From NCBI GenBank assembly GCA_027486835.1, contig JAIXOJ010000125.1, forward strand, positions 1 to 52,104: a stretch of 52,104 nucleotides of DNA, read 5' to 3'. Shown piece after piece: positions 17,115 through 26,221 of this stretch (position 1 is its first letter; each line of letters opens with the position of its first letter). The stretch comes from Chitinophagaceae bacterium (GTDB taxonomy: Bacteria > Bacteroidota > Bacteroidia > Chitinophagales > Chitinophagaceae). A model generated the notes under the pieces. The model saw only the letters and a program-made list of their open reading frames with translations, was not told the origin of the DNA and ran no database searches. Made by a program: the position numbers and the translations under genes.

Positions 17115-20100
17115 ATGCAACAACAGTTACCGTTTTTCACCGCATCCCGAACGAACAAATCGCTTTGGGGAAAAGCATTATCAAACGCTAATTTTATGAG
17201 TAAATGTCTATGGCTGCCACTAGTGGTGGCTTTTGTGTTTTTAGTGGGGATGACTAGTGTTGAGGCACAGACAGCTACCCGATTTAACGATGGTTACCTA
17301 ACTGTCTTTAGATCTACATCTGGATCTACATTGGCAAGTACTGGTACTGCAATTGTTGCAGATGAATTTATTCCAACAACTTCTAGTCAAACAACTGCTA
17401 ATTATAGTGCGTCTTTCCCAACTAGTTCAGGAAACATTTTGGTTTCTTCTGGCACATCAACGGCGGGTGGTCAAATATCAAGATCTGAGAATGGTAGGTA
17501 TTTAATCTTCCCAGGGTACGTTGCCGCTGTTGGTGCTGCCAATTCAACTTTTAATACGAATGGGGCGTTACGTACGGTTAATGGTTCTGGAACAATAGGT
17601 GCGGGTATGGCTGCAAGTTCCACGCAGTGGCTGTCAGGAAATAACAACGTTAGGGGTGGAACAAGTGATGATGGTACCAACTTCTGGGTGTCAGGAAATG
17701 GGGTCGGAATTCAATATATATCCTCTACCACTACGGTAGTAACAGTTGCTACAACCACCACAAATAATAGAGCATCGTTTATATTCAACGGACAGTTATA
17801 CTTAACTACAGGGGCTGGAACACAAGGAATCTACAAGGTTGGTACAGGCAAGCCCATTACGACAGGACAAACTGGCACAAGATTGTTCGCTCCTGCTAAT
17901 ACAGATGTCTATGGATTTTCTATTAGTCCAGATGCGCAAACCATCTATTTTGTAGGTGCAGCTACTGGTACTGGTACTGCAGGTATTTATCGTGCTACTT
18001 ATAATGGAACAACATGGACAACAGGTACACAAATAGCGGCAATAACAGGTTATACTGGTTTAGCCGTTGACTGGACTGGTTACACCTTTAGCACTTCTGC
18101 TGCAAATGGTGCTAAAGTGTATGCTTCCAATCCCACCACAATTATATCTCTTTCCGATAATGGAACAAGCACTGCAACTACTACGACAATAGCTACTTGT
18201 TCTGGAAATAATGCTTTTCGTGGCTTATCCTTCTCTCCAATTAAACAAACTTTAGCATTGGGTACAAATACACCAGCTACTGCTAACATTACAAAAGGGA
18301 CATCTCAAAGTGTATTATTCCAATTCAAAATAACTGCAGACGAAGGAAACTCAACAGTAAAGAAAATAGTACTTTCCAATACGGGTACTGCGGACTTAAG
18401 TACAGACATTACCAACATTAAGCTAATAGTCGATGCTAATAATGATGGAATAGCAGATGCAGCAGAAATATCAGCAGGTACAACAAAAGCAGCGACAATT
18501 TCAGGTAGTACAATTACTTTCAGTGGGTTGAGTTTAGGTACTTATTTAGCAGAATCTTCAAGCTATAATTTTTTAGTTATTGGCAATGTTGCATCGGGTG
18601 CAACAACGGGAAATACATTTATTCCCAAAATTTCTAAAACCTACACCATCAATAGCCAAGATTACACCACAGATATTGTAAATGCAGGAGGTAGTTATGT
18701 TTTTTGCCCTACAGGTGGTGTTACTGGTAATACATTAACTATTGTGGCTGATGCTTCCATTCCTGCCATTACTGGAGCAGCCACTGCAACAGCTTTCACA
18801 ACCACTTACGGAACTCCTGCTACTGCACAAACATTTGCTGTTTCAGGAAGTAATTTAACCGCTAATCTAGTGGCTACAGCACCTACGGGTTTTGAAGTTG
18901 CAAGTGATGGAGCTACTTATGGTACTACCGCCACTTTCACCCAAACAGCAGGTAGTGCAAGCGGTACTTTAAGTGTTCGTCTTGCTGCCAATGCTGCTGT
19001 AACTGGTAATTATAATAGTAAAAACATAGTATTAAGTAGCGCGAGTGCTACGAGCGTTAACATCGTAACTGCTGCTTCTGGAAATAGTGTAGCAGCCAAA
19101 GGGCTAACCATCACAGGACTTACTGGCTCAGATAAAACCTACAATGGTTTAACTGCTGCAAGCGCAACTGGTACGGCTGTTTATACAGGCTTGGTAAATG
19201 GAGAGACTTTTTCTGTAACAGGAAGTCCATCTGCAAGTTTTGCAACTGCCGATGCTGGTAATGGCAAAACAATTACCGTAACAGGTTATACAGCGCCTTC
19301 CACCAACTATACCGTTACCCAACCGGTTTTGAGTGCAAACATTACTCCTGCGCCTTTAACCATTACAGGAATCAGCATTGCTAACAAAACCTTTGATGGA
19401 AATACCACAGCTACAATTGTAGGAACAGCCGATTATGATGGATTGGTAAATGGAGAAACCTTTGCGGTATCTGGAACCCCAGTTGCTACTTTTGCTGATG
19501 CAAGTGTAGGTAATGGTAAAACAGTTACAGTTTCTGGTTATACAGCTCCAAACAGTAATTATAGCATTACGCAACCAACAGGGTTAACGGCCAATATCAC
19601 CAATTTGCAAACGCAAACCATCACCTTTAATGCGCTTTCACCCGTTACGTATGGTGCTGCAAGTTTTGCTTTGAGTGCAACTTCCACTAACAATACCATT
19701 GCCATTACTTATGCGCTTTCTAATAATAATGGTGTAGCTAGCATTTCAGGAAATACCATCACCATTCTAAAAGCTGGAACGGTAACTATTACTGCTTCTC
19801 AAGCAGGTAATGCCAGCTATAGTGCAGCAGCGGATGTAGCAAGGGTATTAACCGTAAATCCCAAAACGATTACTATTTCTGGCGGTTTAACCGTAACCAG
19901 TAAGGTATATGATGGTACTACATCAGCATCAGTTACAGGTACTGCAACCCTAAGCGGTGTAGTAGCAGGTGATGTGGCAAACGTTGCTGTAACTAACGGG
20001 TCTGTTAGTTTCAATACGGCTTCTGTAGCAAATGGCAAGTCAACAACCAGCTCAGGATTTACCTTAGCTGGAAGTGCGGCTGCTAATTATACCCTCACTC

Positions 20101-23100
20101 AACCAACTTTAACAGGAAATATTACCGTAGCTACATTAACTATCACAGCAGATAATGTTAACAAGACTTATGGGCAAACCCTAACTGGGGCAAGTGGTTC
20201 AACTGCTTTTTCTGCAAGTGGGTTAGTAAACGGTGAAACAATCGGAACAGTTACCATCGGATATGGTGCTGCAGGATTGGTAACAGCAACGGTCGGTTCT
20301 TACTCAGGTCAAGCTACTCCTTCTGCTGCAACTGGCGGAACGTTTAGTGCTAGCAACTATAGCATCAATTATGTAGCAGGAATCATTAACGTTAATGTTG
20401 CAACACTTACCATCACTGCATCCAACATCACCAAAGCTGTGGGTACTACCCAAACTTTTGCTGGAACTGAATTCGCAACTTCTGGCTTAGTAAATACCGA
20501 TGCAGTTTCTAGTGTTACGCTTACAAGTTCTGGTGCAGTTAGTTCTGCCGCTCTAGGAACCTTTTCAATTGTGCCTTCTGCTGCAGTTGGTACAGGTTTG
20601 AGTAACTATACCATCAACTATGTAAACGGTACCTTAACCGTGGCAGTTTCAGCTTATCCTTTTGATGGAACAACATATACACAGAATTTCTCTAGTTTAT
20701 CAGGTACAACAACAGCTACCACTTCAACAATTGTTGCGAGTACAATGAATGGTTTACCAACATTAACCAATGGAAGCATCAACACAAATGGATGGTTTAT
20801 TTATGGTGCAGGTACAGCTCCTAAATGGGGTACTAACGATGGTTCATCTAATTCTGGGTCATTCTATCAAATGGTAGATGCATCTGGTGGTAGAGCCTTA
20901 GGTTCAGAAGCATCCGGTTCATCAAATGGATTCTTTGGGTTGGTATTGAAAAATACCTCTGGTGCAACCATCAATAATTTAATTGTCAATTATGATGCGG
21001 TTATAAATCGTAACCCGTCAACTACTGCAAATCCTTTTCCATTAACATATCGCGTTGGTAGCACTGCTGTAAATACGACAACGACATCTGCTCAAACTGA
21101 TGCTGGGACTTTCAGTGCAAGTGCTGGAACATGGACTTCTTCGGCATTCGGCTTTACCACTCCTTCATCTGGAACAGGTGCCCCTGGAACACAAGCAGCT
21201 ATTACCCCAATGTTTAAGATTGGTGGTGTAACACAAGGTGGTACATTAACAGGGTTGAATTGGGGAGCAAACCAATTTTTGTTTATCAGATGGCAGGATA
21301 CGGACGATGGTGGTTCAGATGCAATGGCTGGTGTGGATAATGTTTCTATTGCTATACCAACTGCTACTTTGTCTGGTACTACACAAGCATCTTCAACCCT
21401 TACACAAGGGTCAACAGACGAAGAATTATTAGGCTTTACCGTTACTCCTAACAATAGTACCAATTTCACTGCAGTTACTGTTTCAACAACTGGAACAGCA
21501 ACAGCTTCCGATTTGAGCAACCTCCGCATTTTTAGAGACAATAATGGTAACGGAGTAGTGGATGGTGCTGATGCAACTGTTTCTGGTACAGGTGTATCTT
21601 ATGTAGGCAATTCCACCATTACTTTCACGATTACTGGTGAAACTGGTTTCAGCACAGCTAGAAGTTATATTGTGGTAGGTGATGTTGCAGCCAATGCAAC
21701 AGCAGCAAGAACTACCACACTAAGTATTGCCAATGGCGCTTTCGTTACCACTGCTACTGTTAATTCAGGAACCGCTACCGGTAATGCAAGAACAATTGTT
21801 GGTTCAACCGGAACTTCCACTATAACCGCAGGTGCAGGAACTGAACCAGCAACCATTTCTTCTTTGTTAACTACAACTGGTGCTTCCGTACTCAATTTTG
21901 ATGTTACGATAACAGATGATGGTGCTACACCTGGTAATGATGCAACAGAAACGAAGATTACGCAATTAGTGTTCAGTCAAGGAACTGGGAATACCATCGC
22001 AGATTGGTCTTTGGCCATCGGCGGTGCAACCCTTACAGACGGAACAACCACGGTTAATGGAACAATCAATAGTGGAAATATTACTTTCTCAGGTATAGAC
22101 CCCGCTACATTAGGTCTTATTGCAGATAACACTGCTAAAACCTATACACTAAAAATTTGGTTAAAATCGGATTTAACTACCCTTAAGCCAACCATTGACG
22201 GCGGTCGTTTTGTGTTTAGATTGATTACTAATAATGTAACGTTGGATGCAGGAAGCAGTGCATTAGCCACCGCTCAAGATGTAAATTCAGGATCTACCAA
22301 AAATGCTGTGGATGTAGTAGGTACAGCATTAGCTTATTTGCAAGCCCCAACAGGTACGAATGTGTTTTCTAGCATTTCTCCAGCGGTAACAGTAGTTTCT
22401 AATGATGCTAACGGAAATAGGGATTTAAATTTTGCTTCCTCTGTAAGCGTGACTGGGTCTGGTTTACAATCAGCACCGGTTACAGCAACAGCCTCTGCCG
22501 GTATTGCAACCTTTAGTTCTCTGAAATTTACTACCTCTGGTTCTAAAACATTAACAGCTAGTAGCAGCGGAAAAACAAGTGTTGCTAGTGCTGCTTTTGC
22601 AATTGCTGCCGCCCCTTATCTAACTGAGGTAATTGTTCCTCAATACATGGTAAATGGTGCAACAGCAGGTAATAGGGTGCAGTATGTTAGCCGATTACAA
22701 TTAAATGGTTTGGGTGCAAATAAAACCTATCGCTACTATACAGCCGCTGCGAATAATACAACCGCAGGAACTGCAGCAGCTCCAGGTAATTATTTTGCCA
22801 TCAACAATACCAGTGGTGCAAATGGTTATATCGTTGGTTATAGTTCAGGAAAATCAATGAGTGGTACGCTTCTTACTGGGGATTTATTTTCAAGCTCAAG
22901 TTCTTATGCTCAATTTACAACAGACGCTAGCGGATCATACACCGGTTGGTTTACTTTAGTATCTACTGGTAATGCAGTATTTAATGCAGGAAGTAGTGTT
23001 TATTTATATATCCTTTTGAACGATGGTAACAATGGAACAACTGTTTCTTCAGCTTTGAATACCACCACTCCAATTACCATGCTCGATGCAGCCACAAACG

Positions 23101-25526
23101 CAAGGGCAATCAAGGGAACCTCTAGTGCAACTGCGGAAAATATGATTTTCTTGTATGACAATACTGCTGGTACTGGTCGTCCACTATACGGTACTTGGGC
23201 TGAAAATGATGGTATTACCACCACATTCACCAGTTTCTATACAACAGGTGTAGATGGAACTACAGGAGCATGGGGTGCTTATATACCTACTTCATTGCCA
23301 AACGGCTTAAGAAGAATAGAACAAAGAAGTGTTGCTACTGGCGCAATTACTGGCTACCCTGCAATTAGTTGTAATGGTGTATGGGAAACCAATACAACAG
23401 TTAATCCTACGGCTAGTGCCACCAGCCCATTATTAATTACAGCTGCTGAAGCTCCGTTAGATAATTCATTAAACATTTGGGTAGGTACTACCAATAATTG
23501 GAGTACTGCAACTAACTGGCAAAGCGGGGTAGTACCAACTAGCACTACAGATGCATATATAAATAGCTGTGCTTTGAATGCTCCACAACTTTCAGCCAAT
23601 AGTTCAGTAAGAAAAATTACGGTTAATTCCAATGCTACTTTGAAGTTGAGTACTTTCAATTTAACTGTAGCTGGTGCTTCAGCTAAAATTTCAGGTACCA
23701 TTTCAGGAACTGGTGCTACTGTTTTTGCTGGATCGGCTGCTCAAACTATCAATGGTAAAGGAACTGTCGGTAATCTTACTATTAATAACAGCAATGATGT
23801 TGCTTTAGGGGGTACAACAACTGACTCTCTCAATATTTCTGGCGTTTTGACATTGCAAAACGGAGCATTCACCACCAATGATAAACTTACATTGAAGTCC
23901 ACTAGTATTGGCCAAACGGCAACTATTGCTCCGATTGGTGTGTCTGGAAACACTGGTACAATTAGTGGAAAAGTAATTTCCGAACGTTTTATTCCTAAGG
24001 GTTATAGAGCCTATCGCGACATTGCCCCTGGTGTATTTAACGCAGGAACAATTTACAATAACTGGCAAGAAGGTGGTGCTGCATCTGTTGGTAATGGTAT
24101 ATATATAACTGGTGGTGCCCCTGAAACAAACGCAGCAAAGGCATTTACTGCAAATGCAAAAGGTTTTGATTATTCGGTTAATGGATTAAAATCTGGTTAT
24201 ACATTTAACAATACTACTGGCAGTTGGGATTCATTAGTTGCTACCAATACGCAGACCCTGAATCCTTTTCAAGGCTACAGGTTACTAGTTAGAGGTGATA
24301 GAAGCTTTAATATGTACACACAGCCCATTAGTTATTCACTCGGAAGCTTACTAATGGTAAATGCAACTAAGTTGAGGGCAAAAGGATTCATTATATCTGG
24401 GGATGTAACCTTTAGTAAAAACGGGGTAGATAATGCAGTGACAGGTGTTTATAACTCATCATTTTATGGCTTAAACACCATCACCGATACCAGCTTTAGC
24501 ATAATTACCAACCCTTACTTATGCCCAGTTAGTTGGGATGATGTATTAGCTAATTCAAGTAATATCAATGGTTCTTATTGGTTTTTAGATCCTACGAAAG
24601 GTTCAGCAGGAAGCTATGTATCCTACAATGGTGCATCACAAACTTCCAGCAATGGTGGTACTAAATATATTCAACCAGGTCAAGCAGTGTTTATCCAAAA
24701 TTTAAGCGGAGTAGCTATCAATCCAATTGTGATATTCAAAGAGACACATAAGGTAACAACGGATGCTGCTAAAGTGGGAGTTTTTGGAACTAAATCAACG
24801 GTAAATAAAATAGTATTTGGTCTACACAAAGAGACTAGTAGCAGCCTTAAAGAAATGGACGGAGCTACTTTAGTTTTTGGTAATAATTTTAAATCAAGTG
24901 TAGGGATAGAAGATGCAGTTAAATTGGCTAACTCTACGGACAACTTATCAATTGTTGAAGGCAATACTGCTCTTTCAATTGATGCAAGAAAACCAGCAAC
25001 CTCTGGTGACATTATACCATTGCAATTGCAACAACTTTCTACTGCTAAATACCAATTAACTGTTGACGCAAGTGCTTATCAATCTAATGGCTTAACCGCA
25101 TATTTGGAAGATAAATATCTACAGACAACCACAGAATTATCTACTGGCATTTCTAATTTCTCCTTTGATGTAAATGCTACTGTTGAAAGCTCTTATAAAA
25201 ATAGATTTAGTATAGTGTTTAAGGCTGCGAAATTGGCATCTGTTGCTCAAACCTTAATTAATGTAGGTTATGAACTATATCCAAATCCAGTTACTAGTAA
25301 TGATGTGAATGTAAAGGTGAGCAATACTGATGCTATCAAATACATCGTGGAAGTTTACAACACTTTGGGTCAGTTAGTGGTCACTAAAACAATACAACAT
25401 AATGGAGGAGTTGCTGTATATCCAGTTAAGCTAAATTCTGTAACAAATGGTATGTACAAAGTGGTAGTAAAGGCTGAAAATGCAAAAAATGTTGCGTTTC
25501 AGACGTCAATTTCAGTCCAAAAATAA
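17115..25526 (+). CDS. Giant T9SS-secreted repeat protein (YDG/MBG/Ig-like) with Por-type C-terminal signal
   Basis: 2,803 residues, Thr/Ser/Gly/Ala-rich and poor in Cys. A hydrophobic signal lies at 28-52 (MSKCLWLPLVVAF to VEAQ), so ATG 17196 is an alternative start. Modules seen: a propeller-like region (53-375), a segment with an Asp-rich loop DANNDGIADAAE near 440 and its copy RDNNGNGVVDGAD near 1474, YDG repeats (about 661-825 and 915-1010), an Ig-like unit (830-905), MBG_2-like repeats (1012-1175), a lectin/MAM-like domain (1180-1415), and a NWSTATNWQSG beta-solenoid start near 2131. The last 85 residues are a T9SS type-A sorting domain (YELYPNPVTSNDVNV to VSVQK-like end). It is probably a surface fibre or adhesin. 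The PID-CTERM-like gene follows after 87 bp with no terminator between, suggesting one transcript. Confidence 0.92.
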   Translation: MQQQLPFFTASRTNKSLWGKALSNANFMSKCLWLPLVVAFVFLVGMTSVEAQTATRFNDGYLTVFRSTSGSTLASTGTAIVADEFIPTTSSQTTANYSASFPTSSGNILVSSGTSTAGGQISRSENGRYLIFPGYVAAVGAANSTFNTNGALRTVNGSGTIGAGMAASSTQWLSGNNNVRGGTSDDGTNFWVSGNGVGIQYISSTTTVVTVATTTTNNRASFIFNGQLYLTTGAGTQGIYKVGTGKPITTGQTGTRLFAPANTDVYGFSISPDAQTIYFVGAATGTGTAGIYRATYNGTTWTTGTQIAAITGYTGLAVDWTGYTFSTSAANGAKVYASNPTTIISLSDNGTSTATTTTIATCSGNNAFRGLSFSPIKQTLALGTNTPATANITKGTSQSVLFQFKITADEGNSTVKKIVLSNTGTADLSTDITNIKLIVDANNDGIADAAEISAGTTKAATISGSTITFSGLSLGTYLAESSSYNFLVIGNVASGATTGNTFIPKISKTYTINSQDYTTDIVNAGGSYVFCPTGGVTGNTLTIVADASIPAITGAATATAFTTTYGTPATAQTFAVSGSNLTANLVATAPTGFEVASDGATYGTTATFTQTAGSASGTLSVRLAANAAVTGNYNSKNIVLSSASATSVNIVTAASGNSVAAKGLTITGLTGSDKTYNGLTAASATGTAVYTGLVNGETFSVTGSPSASFATADAGNGKTITVTGYTAPSTNYTVTQPVLSANITPAPLTITGISIANKTFDGNTTATIVGTADYDGLVNGETFAVSGTPVATFADASVGNGKTVTVSGYTAPNSNYSITQPTGLTANITNLQTQTITFNALSPVTYGAASFALSATSTNNTIAITYALSNNNGVASISGNTITILKAGTVTITASQAGNASYSAAADVARVLTVNPKTITISGGLTVTSKVYDGTTSASVTGTATLSGVVAGDVANVAVTNGSVSFNTASVANGKSTTSSGFTLAGSAAANYTLTQPTLTGNITVATLTITADNVNKTYGQTLTGASGSTAFSASGLVNGETIGTVTIGYGAAGLVTATVGSYSGQATPSAATGGTFSASNYSINYVAGIINVNVATLTITASNITKAVGTTQTFAGTEFATSGLVNTDAVSSVTLTSSGAVSSAALGTFSIVPSAAVGTGLSNYTINYVNGTLTVAVSAYPFDGTTYTQNFSSLSGTTTATTSTIVASTMNGLPTLTNGSINTNGWFIYGAGTAPKWGTNDGSSNSGSFYQMVDASGGRALGSEASGSSNGFFGLVLKNTSGATINNLIVNYDAVINRNPSTTANPFPLTYRVGSTAVNTTTTSAQTDAGTFSASAGTWTSSAFGFTTPSSGTGAPGTQAAITPMFKIGGVTQGGTLTGLNWGANQFLFIRWQDTDDGGSDAMAGVDNVSIAIPTATLSGTTQASSTLTQGSTDEELLGFTVTPNNSTNFTAVTVSTTGTATASDLSNLRIFRDNNGNGVVDGADATVSGTGVSYVGNSTITFTITGETGFSTARSYIVVGDVAANATAARTTTLSIANGAFVTTATVNSGTATGNARTIVGSTGTSTITAGAGTEPATISSLLTTTGASVLNFDVTITDDGATPGNDATETKITQLVFSQGTGNTIADWSLAIGGATLTDGTTTVNGTINSGNITFSGIDPATLGLIADNTAKTYTLKIWLKSDLTTLKPTIDGGRFVFRLITNNVTLDAGSSALATAQDVNSGSTKNAVDVVGTALAYLQAPTGTNVFSSISPAVTVVSNDANGNRDLNFASSVSVTGSGLQSAPVTATASAGIATFSSLKFTTSGSKTLTASSSGKTSVASAAFAIAAAPYLTEVIVPQYMVNGATAGNRVQYVSRLQLNGLGANKTYRYYTAAANNTTAGTAAAPGNYFAINNTSGANGYIVGYSSGKSMSGTLLTGDLFSSSSSYAQFTTDASGSYTGWFTLVSTGNAVFNAGSSVYLYILLNDGNNGTTVSSALNTTTPITMLDAATNARAIKGTSSATAENMIFLYDNTAGTGRPLYGTWAENDGITTTFTSFYTTGVDGTTGAWGAYIPTSLPNGLRRIEQRSVATGAITGYPAISCNGVWETNTTVNPTASATSPLLITAAEAPLDNSLNIWVGTTNNWSTATNWQSGVVPTSTTDAYINSCALNAPQLSANSSVRKITVNSNATLKLSTFNLTVAGASAKISGTISGTGATVFAGSAAQTINGKGTVGNLTINNSNDVALGGTTTDSLNISGVLTLQNGAFTTNDKLTLKSTSIGQTATIAPIGVSGNTGTISGKVISERFIPKGYRAYRDIAPGVFNAGTIYNNWQEGGAASVGNGIYITGGAPETNAAKAFTANAKGFDYSVNGLKSGYTFNNTTGSWDSLVATNTQTLNPFQGYRLLVRGDRSFNMYTQPISYSLGSLLMVNATKLRAKGFIISGDVTFSKNGVDNAVTGVYNSSFYGLNTITDTSFSIITNPYLCPVSWDDVLANSSNINGSYWFLDPTKGSAGSYVSYNGASQTSSNGGTKYIQPGQAVFIQNLSGVAINPIVIFKETHKVTTDAAKVGVFGTKSTVNKIVFGLHKETSSSLKEMDGATLVFGNNFKSSVGIEDAVKLANSTDNLSIVEGNTALSIDARKPATSGDIIPLQLQQLSTAKYQLTVDASAYQSNGLTAYLEDKYLQTTTELSTGISNFSFDVNATVESSYKNRFSIVFKAAKLASVAQTLINVGYELYPNPVTSNDVNVKVSNTDAIKYIVEVYNTLGQLVVTKTIQHNGGVAVYPVKLNSVTNGMYKVVVKAENAKNVAFQTSISVQK

Positions 25527-25613
25527 TTTTTTTCAAGTGCTGAGTGGTTTGTATTCATTCAGCACTTACTTTTACGCCTCAATTAATAATAATTAACCTC
25601 ATACACATTTTTT

Positions 25614-25874
25614 ATGACATCACTTACTAAAAAAATTATTGGGTTTTCATTCCTGTTTTTCTTCTCGCTTGTCTTAGCTGCTACCTTGCAAGCCCAAACC
25701 CCTGCAACATTCGATCCAGGCATCGGAGGTCCAATAGACGGTGGTGTTGGTAGTGGCGATGGTGGTGGCCCAATTATTCCATTTGATGGTGGCATGAGTT
25801 TAATGCTGCTTGCCTCTGGAGTTGGTTATGCCTCTGACAAACTTCGTAAAAATGGAATTTTAAAATCTAAATAG
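25614..25874 (+). CDS. Small PID-CTERM-like membrane-sorted protein
   Basis: 86 residues: an N-terminal signal peptide (ending LQAQ at about 25-28), a Gly/Pro/Asp-rich spacer, the motif IPFDGGMSLMLLASGVGYAS, and a short basic tail (KLRKNGILKSK). This layout, motif then hydrophobic helix then basic end, is that of the Bacteroidota small proteins I recall as PID-CTERM, which are proposed to be handled by an exosortase-like sorting system. No exosortase is in the window. It sits directly behind the giant T9SS protein and before a strong terminator, so co-expression with the giant protein is likely (inference). Confidence 0.75.
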   Translation: MTSLTKKIIGFSFLFFFSLVLAATLQAQTPATFDPGIGGPIDGGVGSGDGGGPIIPFDGGMSLMLLASGVGYASDKLRKNGILKSK

Positions 25875-26221
25875 ATTTTCAATTTTATTTTCAATGATTT
25901 AGCCCCTAGTTTTAATTAACTAGGGGCTATTTTGTTTATGGTTACCCGGCCAATTGAGAGTATCTTTTTGGAATTAATAATTAGCATACACCTAATACCA
26001 CAATTTCTGATTTCATATAAATAGTATTGATTTGTAGGCTGTTAATGCACTAAAGTTGTGTCCTTATTTAATCGTGTTTATTCTAAAATTATTTGGAACT
26101 GAACAATGGACAAAACGAATGACACTAATCCAGGCCTTGTTCTTGAAATTTTGAAATCATTCAGCAGCTAAAAAGTGTTTTATATTTTTAGCTACTACAC
26201 AACCTATTCTATATAGTTTAC
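25875..26221. other. Intergenic region between converging genes
   Basis: Apart from the terminator at 25901-25934 nothing certain is present. A 21-codon frame at 26106-26171 has protein-like composition but no other support. Confidence 0.4.
25901..25934 (+). terminator. Rho-independent terminator of the giant-protein/PID-CTERM unit
   Basis: An 11-bp perfect stem, AGCCCCTAGTT/AACTAGGGGCT (25901-25911 and 25918-25928), with a six-base loop, then ATTTTG. Confidence 0.8.

Follow-up and report, generated by a model that had tools for sequence, protein, structure and literature searches.

Here we describe a pairing of two kinds of gene in Bacteroidota: a gene for a cargo protein of the type IX secretion system (T9SS) and, directly behind it, a gene for a PID-CTERM-like mini-protein (hereafter, mini), which consists of hardly more than a sorting signal at either end of a short Gly/Pro-rich peptide. 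The pair from which the analysis departs lies in a stretch of 52,104 nucleotides from a Chitinophagaceae bacterium (GenBank assembly GCA_027486835.1, contig JAIXOJ010000125.1; the whole stretch is referred to as the window), on contig C18 of a draft genome of 6.4 Mb and 219 contigs. The pairing of minis with T9SS cargos is systematic. Comparative genomics shows both this pairing and a link of the minis to exosortases, and two export systems that were thought to be separate appear to be linked gene by gene in many Bacteroidota.

The pairing was counted in 40 genomes of the family and 296 genomes of the phylum, which together yielded 172 distinct minis; a false small open reading frame (ORF; L076, 1586-1761) was removed ahead of every mini count, and two phylum-search matches at contig starts (G143 C3 and C9) are not included. 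The upstream gene lies on the same strand in 148 cases and on the opposite strand in 19, with none in view in 5. After removal of two duplicates from the 148 references, 129 of 146 same-strand upstream genes carry a TIGR04183 tail, compared with 10 of 126 downstream neighbours (134 references, from which four that stop at the region edge, three duplicates and one mini were removed), and PF18962 matches 127 of the 146; these neighbour counts were taken at E ≤ 0.001 and not at the curated cut-offs. Six of the 126 downstream neighbours are themselves the upstream partner of another mini. Since paralogues and relatives are not independent, the Fisher p of about 4e-45 for the upstream versus downstream contrast is an overstatement, although the contrast goes well beyond chance. 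More weight belongs to the count of genera: an in-house model of the C-terminal domain (CTD), built from the same upstream set and hence giving counts that are not independent of the 129 of 146, detects a T9SS partner for 137 of the 172 minis; of the 35 genera concerned 27 contain such a pair, as do 9 of the 11 families. The distance correlation and the counts of intergenic stem-loops, terminator-like sites and -7 motifs given below also draw on this model.

Within the window's genus, minis are present in all 12 other sampled genomes, with 1 to 30 matches each. The loci of this set hold 88 distinct minis, eight of them from L246-L253 (mostly other genera) and two from the window's own genome. 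The upstream gene is on the same strand in 61 cases (five of these genes already being in the family and phylum set), on the opposite strand in 8 and not in view in 19, draft assemblies being prone to break near the giant genes; 55 of the 61 end in a TIGR04183 tail. The expectation of the original prediction, made from the window's letters alone, that the two genes should be neighbours in related genomes is thereby borne out, both in this set, which is mostly of the window's genus, and across the 27 genera. Distances between minis correlate with distances between the CTDs of their partners (four sets that overlap, with a Mantel r of 0.74-0.82 and, for every set, 0 of 5000 permutations), which shows joint descent of mini and CTD, not contact.

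The window's own pair is laid out as follows, all on the plus strand:

17115 to 25526, plus strand: T9SS type A cargo, a giant repeat protein of 2803 aa (ORF and profile matches)
17115 to 17267, plus strand: signal peptide of the cargo, with a predicted cut between SVEA and Q (read from the sequence)
19095 to 20108, plus strand: three YDG domains, at 19095-19322, 19344-19580 and 19857-20108 (profile matches)
25275 to 25487, plus strand: type A T9SS C-terminal sorting domain (profile matches)
25535 to 25567, plus strand: stem-loop between cargo and mini, with a stem of 13 bp, a loop of 7 nt and a weak U-tract (-18.2 kcal/mol, z -4.9)
25614 to 25874, plus strand: PID-CTERM-like mini of 86 aa (ORF, NF046080 match, paralogue alignment)
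25614 to 25694, plus strand: signal peptide of the mini, with a predicted cut between TLQA and QTPATF (read from the sequence)
25695 to 25778, plus strand: predicted mature Gly/Pro-rich peptide of 28 aa (likeness to relatives' minis of the form QSPADDPGIGGPGSPGNGPSGDGSPVV)
25779 to 25853, plus strand: PID-CTERM signal, consisting of a PFDGG motif, a short hydrophobic stretch and a basic end (profile match and alignments)
25900 to 25929, plus strand: intrinsic terminator-like hairpin 3' of the mini, with a 12-bp stem (terminator-like site)

The 8.4-kb gene with a T9SS tail and, 87 bp behind it, the 86-residue protein with a sorting-like C-terminal signal had both been predicted, and both stand. 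The large protein is assigned to the type A T9SS substrates by TIGR04183 (31 bits, cut-off 23) and passes the curated cut-off of PF18962 as well (31.8 bits, cut-off 27). A profile search finds three YDG and four MBG_2 stretches in it, and the Gln after the predicted cut of its signal peptide fits the Q-rule of Bacteroidetes, by which Gln is expected right after the signal-peptidase cut (as stated in PMC5837995, in part).

The mini itself matches the NF046080 PID_CTERM model at 19.9 bits (E 4.8e-4) and, in the genome-wide search, at 21.9 bits, in both cases short of the curated cut-off of 26 bits; its same-genome paralogue C76 exceeds it at 29.4 bits. A low score of this kind is what one would see if a spurious small ORF happened to lie behind a giant gene, but such an artefact of chance proximity is already refuted by the conservation of the mini sequence in paralogues and relatives and by the neighbour statistics, and we give it practically no weight. 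The window's mini can be aligned over its length with its paralogues (an alignment of eight from the same genome) and follows the PID-CTERM plan: an N-terminal signal peptide, a P[IVF]D-GG motif, a hydrophobic stretch and a C-terminal basic end. This plan was read from the alignment of the eight paralogues and from a second alignment, of 79 minis mostly of the window's genus. The second alignment was made without L246-L253, which are from other genera apart from two genomes of the window's genus, and without L336, which lacks the motif pattern.

In the same genome the PID model gives 20 matches, of which 17 were judged real (L018-L020 were set aside as spurious), and one more, a divergent mini that follows a cargo on C122, raises the total to 18. 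Fifteen of the 18 lie directly 3' of a gene with a T9SS-type tail. The others are C205:78340, which sits behind another mini and not behind a T9SS cargo, a mini on C153 whose T9SS gene is downstream, and L028:2441-2632 on C213, which sits behind an OmpA-family gene instead of a T9SS cargo; OmpA-type models and the PorE model of the T9SS match the end of that upstream gene, the matches listed being below their cut-offs. There are two main kinds of mini in this genome, one with APIDGGISLLL behind one CTD type and one with PFDGGMSLML behind another. Among the PID matches no fusion of cargo and mini was seen. PID signals occur beyond mini-proteins: L144:2515-5199, of which 894 aa are in view, reads as a long membrane protein with several passes and has a PID-CTERM-like end, and no T9SS tail is visible in it by eye, the protein not having been profile-scanned. 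A few minis (L129:2129-2620, L156:2572-3039 and L160:2552-2968) have some 80-100 extra N-terminal residues with Cys pairs before the hydrophobic stretch, as if a soluble Cys-rich domain had been added.

PID-CTERM proteins and exosortases go together in the two samples. In the family sample, PID occurs in 13 genomes, an exosortase matching the exosortase X (XrtX) model in 13 and both in 11 (p about 2e-6); G005 and, weakly, G028 have an XrtX match without PID. In the phylum sample, PID occurs in 48 genomes and an XrtX-model match in 90, the match being present in 48 of 48 PID genomes versus 42 of the 248 others (p about 1e-30); at the survey threshold the model also picks up related exosortases such as XrtF. 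Among genomes with an XrtX above the cut-off, 35 of 36 hold PID. The original prediction had called for a search of the genome for an exosortase-like enzyme, and three were found, on C74, C19 and C205. Against the Exosortase X model NF046081 they score 127.2, 101.5 and 58 bits, which does not reach its cut-off of 170; the best NCBIfam model for the C19 enzyme is XrtX, and this enzyme, the one scanned against TIGR04178, falls into the exosortase/archaeosortase superfamily by that model at 48.8 bits (cut-off 23). The catalytic triad of exosortases consists of Cys, Arg and His, and these residues are invariant in 16 of 16 aligned exosortases, all three from the window's genome included.

Exosortase genes also adjoin minis: an exosortase is the next gene downstream of a mini in 11 of 126 cases, several relatives have a mini directly upstream of an exosortase, and some have the order cargo, mini, exosortase. 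Many XrtX-like genes are in turn followed by an overlapping or adjoining gene for a small membrane protein. Three multi-pass membrane proteins of about 240-250 aa (L021:335-1072, L027:2105-2824 and L008:1713-2468) look alike by eye, one lying beside the C19 exosortase and two downstream of minis. The idea that these are YhhN-like, with a possible part in lipid chemistry, was dropped, as the Pfam search returned only PF07947, at E 0.2 and for one of the three.

The reading that we favour, although tentatively, is that the mini supplies an exosortase-made surface peptide beside the T9SS cargo and that this peptide is consumed in the cargo's display. The product of the first gene, a type A cargo by its sorting domain, would cross the outer membrane via its CTD. 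The mini would pass through Sec and signal peptidase I to the inner membrane, leaving its N-terminal Gln exposed. An XrtX-type exosortase would recognise the P[IF]D-GG motif, the hydrophobic stretch and the basic tail and cut there, so that a short Gly/Pro-rich peptide is set free or conjugated; we infer this step because of the co-occurrence, the gene adjacency and the intact catalytic residues. The peptide may then be consumed in the surface display of the neighbouring T9SS cargo, either as part of the anchor or as part of the layer that holds the cargo. If it is used in the display of its neighbour, every cargo of this kind would come with a supply of its own, an idea that we propose on the model of type B cargos, which have an SprF-like shuttle gene directly downstream. 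A more specific version, in which the PID peptide would serve as the covalent anchor of type A cargos at the surface of XrtX bacteria, or would connect them to that anchor, seems unlikely to us; it would amount to a two-sortase attachment, with PorU joining the cargo to the XrtX-made peptide and the acceptor encoded beside each cargo.

The features of the predicted mature peptide bear on this reading and on its rivals. Of 255 minis examined, 245 have a hydrophobic run that can be detected, and 226 of these show a signal-peptidase boundary with [AGSC] before the cut and Gln after it. The segment that starts with this Gln and runs up to the motif measures 8-56 residues (median 16); Pro and Gly together make up about 39% of the 20 residues ahead of the motif. 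A mini might alternatively act before cleavage, as a membrane-tethered helper, for instance a factor for docking or timing of the cargo in the periplasm, with the exosortase merely removing it; its cargo-adjacent position and co-inheritance with the cargo would suit such a role, but so short and Pro/Gly-rich a mature part leaves little for a fold, and in three genomes it hardly changes from one cargo to another, so that we regard a helper of this kind as quite unlikely. In those three of eight genomes (two of them of one genus) the mature peptides of paralogues are 0.88-0.91 identical, as compared with 0.28-0.51 for the signal peptides, 0.29-0.53 for the tails and 0.53-0.65 for the partner CTDs; the motif together with the hydrophobic stretch is equally constant (0.84-1.00). 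Near-identical short peptides in several copies in some genomes, and the large numbers of matches per genome in the window's genus (up to 30), might also point to a secreted pheromone-like signal encoded in multiple copies for dosage. We consider this very unlikely, given the strong tie of the minis to T9SS cargo genes; furthermore, no receptor-like gene is prominent among the neighbour matches listed, although no search was aimed at receptors.

The same near-identity behind unlike cargos in the three genomes is also what would be expected if the minis were independent exosortase products, for example peptides on an exopolysaccharide or surface matrix, that adjoin adhesin genes for co-expression and make no contact with the cargo. 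In keeping with this, PEP-CTERM/exosortase systems accompany exopolysaccharide genes (PMC7468200, in part), and the minis of Flavobacteriaceae are found at a locus that is not a T9SS one. The T9SS tail on the upstream neighbour in 129 of 146 cases speaks against such independence, and we judge it rather unlikely overall.

The Flavobacteriaceae mini (L104:1498-1680, L153:2316-2636, L195:2413-2610, L196:2536-2784 and L378-L407) has the same plan as the others, with a signal peptide, a Pro-rich stretch, PIDGG, a hydrophobic stretch and a Lys end. Its locus is mostly ribE-pdxA: among 30 loci, ribE is recognised by sequence pattern at 28 and pdxA at 29. Of 60 genera surveyed, 38 have the mini (37 if the doubtful G381 is discounted); every one of these is among the 39 with XrtF, and the mini is found in 0 of 21 XrtF-less genomes. 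This makes the ribE-pdxA mini a candidate substrate of XrtF. Passages of a mutant study of F. johnsoniae report that zorbs are lost and biofilm is much reduced when xrtF or its partner gene is deleted, and likewise on deletion of porU and porV, that colonisation is harmed by loss of xrtF or the associated gene, and that one of nine mutants only, CJ2302 (sprA), formed nonspreading colonies; the exosortase substrates were left to future work there (PMC10936215).

Several observations weigh against the favoured reading of a peptide consumed in cargo display. The window's genome has at least 150 T9SS tails versus 15 pairs, so that most cargos have no mini, and 35 of the 172 minis have no detected upstream T9SS partner. 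Two genomes of the family sample (G016 and G023) have minis without an XrtX match. At the ribE-pdxA loci, where the mini was located in 11 of 30, a T9SS tail is found in 0 of 6 same-strand upstream genes. The partner CTDs do not form a separate class; those of the five cargos ahead of APIDGGISLLL-type minis are divergent (19.7-24.3 bits against TIGR04183, whose cut-off of 23 three of them narrowly pass and two fail), and all five also resemble type C tails, at 23.8-29.3 bits and thus below the cut-off of 40. In the other five of the eight genomes, the window's own included, the mature peptides vary (0.28-0.64 identity), partly because the script miscut some of them. Last, 78 of 112 pairs have a strong stem-loop (z < -3) in the gap that separates the two genes; downstream of the mini such a structure occurs in 36 of 112, and within the end of the cargo gene in 4 of 112.

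These stem-loops limit what can be said about transcription. The original prediction of a single strong terminator holds insofar as a terminator-like site follows the window's mini and fails insofar as a second strong stem-loop lies between the two genes; the prediction of a single transcription unit is in the same way only partly upheld, since this structure separates the genes. The canonical Bacteroidota -7 motif is TAnnTTTG, and it is not enriched between cargo and mini: it occurs in 4 of 180 intergenic regions compared with 7.9 in shuffles, and the window's region has none. The gap is 25 bp or less in 28 of the 180 regions. We conclude that co-transcription of cargo and mini with read-through at the stem-loop is likely, a grade that we keep from being firmer because the stem-loop sits between them. 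Many of the intergenic stem-loops have no U-tract, and a leaky terminator, an mRNA stabiliser or another role is possible. The placement of terminators was set aside as a proof of co-transcription, as terminator-like sites show a weak contrast in regions of equal length (30 of 179 pairs between the genes versus 44 of 179 after the mini). The view of the intergenic stem-loop as an element special to the pairs was weakened, given that mini-less cargos also end in stem-loops: these were counted at z < -3 for 27 of 59 cargos without a mini versus 11 of 15 with one, or, since one mini-less gene had been counted twice, 26 of 58 versus 11 of 15 (one-sided p 0.045), with 2 of 40 fetched control cargos left out as too near a contig end.

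As to what sets the paired cargos apart, three candidates were ruled out. The original prediction asked whether minis regularly follow YDG/MBG giants; such a tie is not supported, as one of the four YDG proteins of the window's genome has a mini, while RCC1/LamG/NHL or Ig/PKD-like repeats are found in two further partners, and YDG repeats were rejected as the determinant. A special CTD subclass of the partners (HxGG) was rejected because the model built from them matches 128 tails in the same genome; a mini lies behind 9 of its top 30 matches (eight of the PFDGGM type and the divergent one on C122), eight of these having been found by a small-ORF scan and C205:45607 being known from the PID search. 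A conserved region of about 450 aa ahead of the CTD is present in mini-less cargos too, as seen by a pattern check of 30 cargos.

Among systems already described, PID-CTERM (NF046080) with exosortase X (NF046081) has the same C-terminal signal as the window's mini, the C19 enzyme is closest to XrtX among the NCBIfam models, and PID and XrtX co-occur; the window's mini and the three exosortases of its genome, however, stay below the curated cut-offs. The large protein, by passing both TIGR04183 and PF18962, is like other T9SS type A cargos. These are described as sharing a single shuttle, PorV, and in the portions of the source concerned no per-cargo partner gene such as the one described here is mentioned for type A (PMC12618676). 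The nearest published parallel is the type B cargo gene, which commonly has directly 3' of it a gene for a dedicated PorP/SprF-like shuttle, for which a stoichiometric supply has been argued (PMC12618676, in part): in both cases a dedicated partner gene stands directly behind the cargo gene, but there a type B CTD goes with a shuttle protein and here a type A CTD goes with an exosortase-type mini. The F. johnsoniae XrtF system is similar in having an exosortase family protein with an associated protein, and differs from the window's pair in that the Flavobacteriaceae mini, its candidate substrate, is not seen behind a T9SS gene. GlyGly-CTERM proteins likewise have a C-terminal sorting signal, which is cut and joined to a carrier (PMC7468200, in part); there a rhomboid enzyme, rhombosortase, handles substrates secreted by the type II secretion system, whereas here an exosortase is paired with mini-proteins. 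In a passage of the same source a shared chemistry of VimA and exosortase systems is speculated upon (PMC7468200).

Among the matches listed, no title or abstract start in the open-access literature on exosortases and T9SS describes the pairing of minis with T9SS cargos, and the term PID-CTERM was not found in the open-access literature; the novelty of the pairing is bounded by that literature, the NCBIfam model descriptions, with a possible remark on T9SS, being outside its scope.

The findings name candidate exosortase substrates for Bacteroidota, namely the minis behind T9SS cargos for XrtX and the ribE-pdxA mini for XrtF. They also tie exosortases to T9SS gene by gene, which brings the question of what exosortases act on within reach of simple deletion and mass-spectrometry tests. 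If the peptide does anchor its cargo, a second enzyme would be added to the surface display of type A T9SS proteins.

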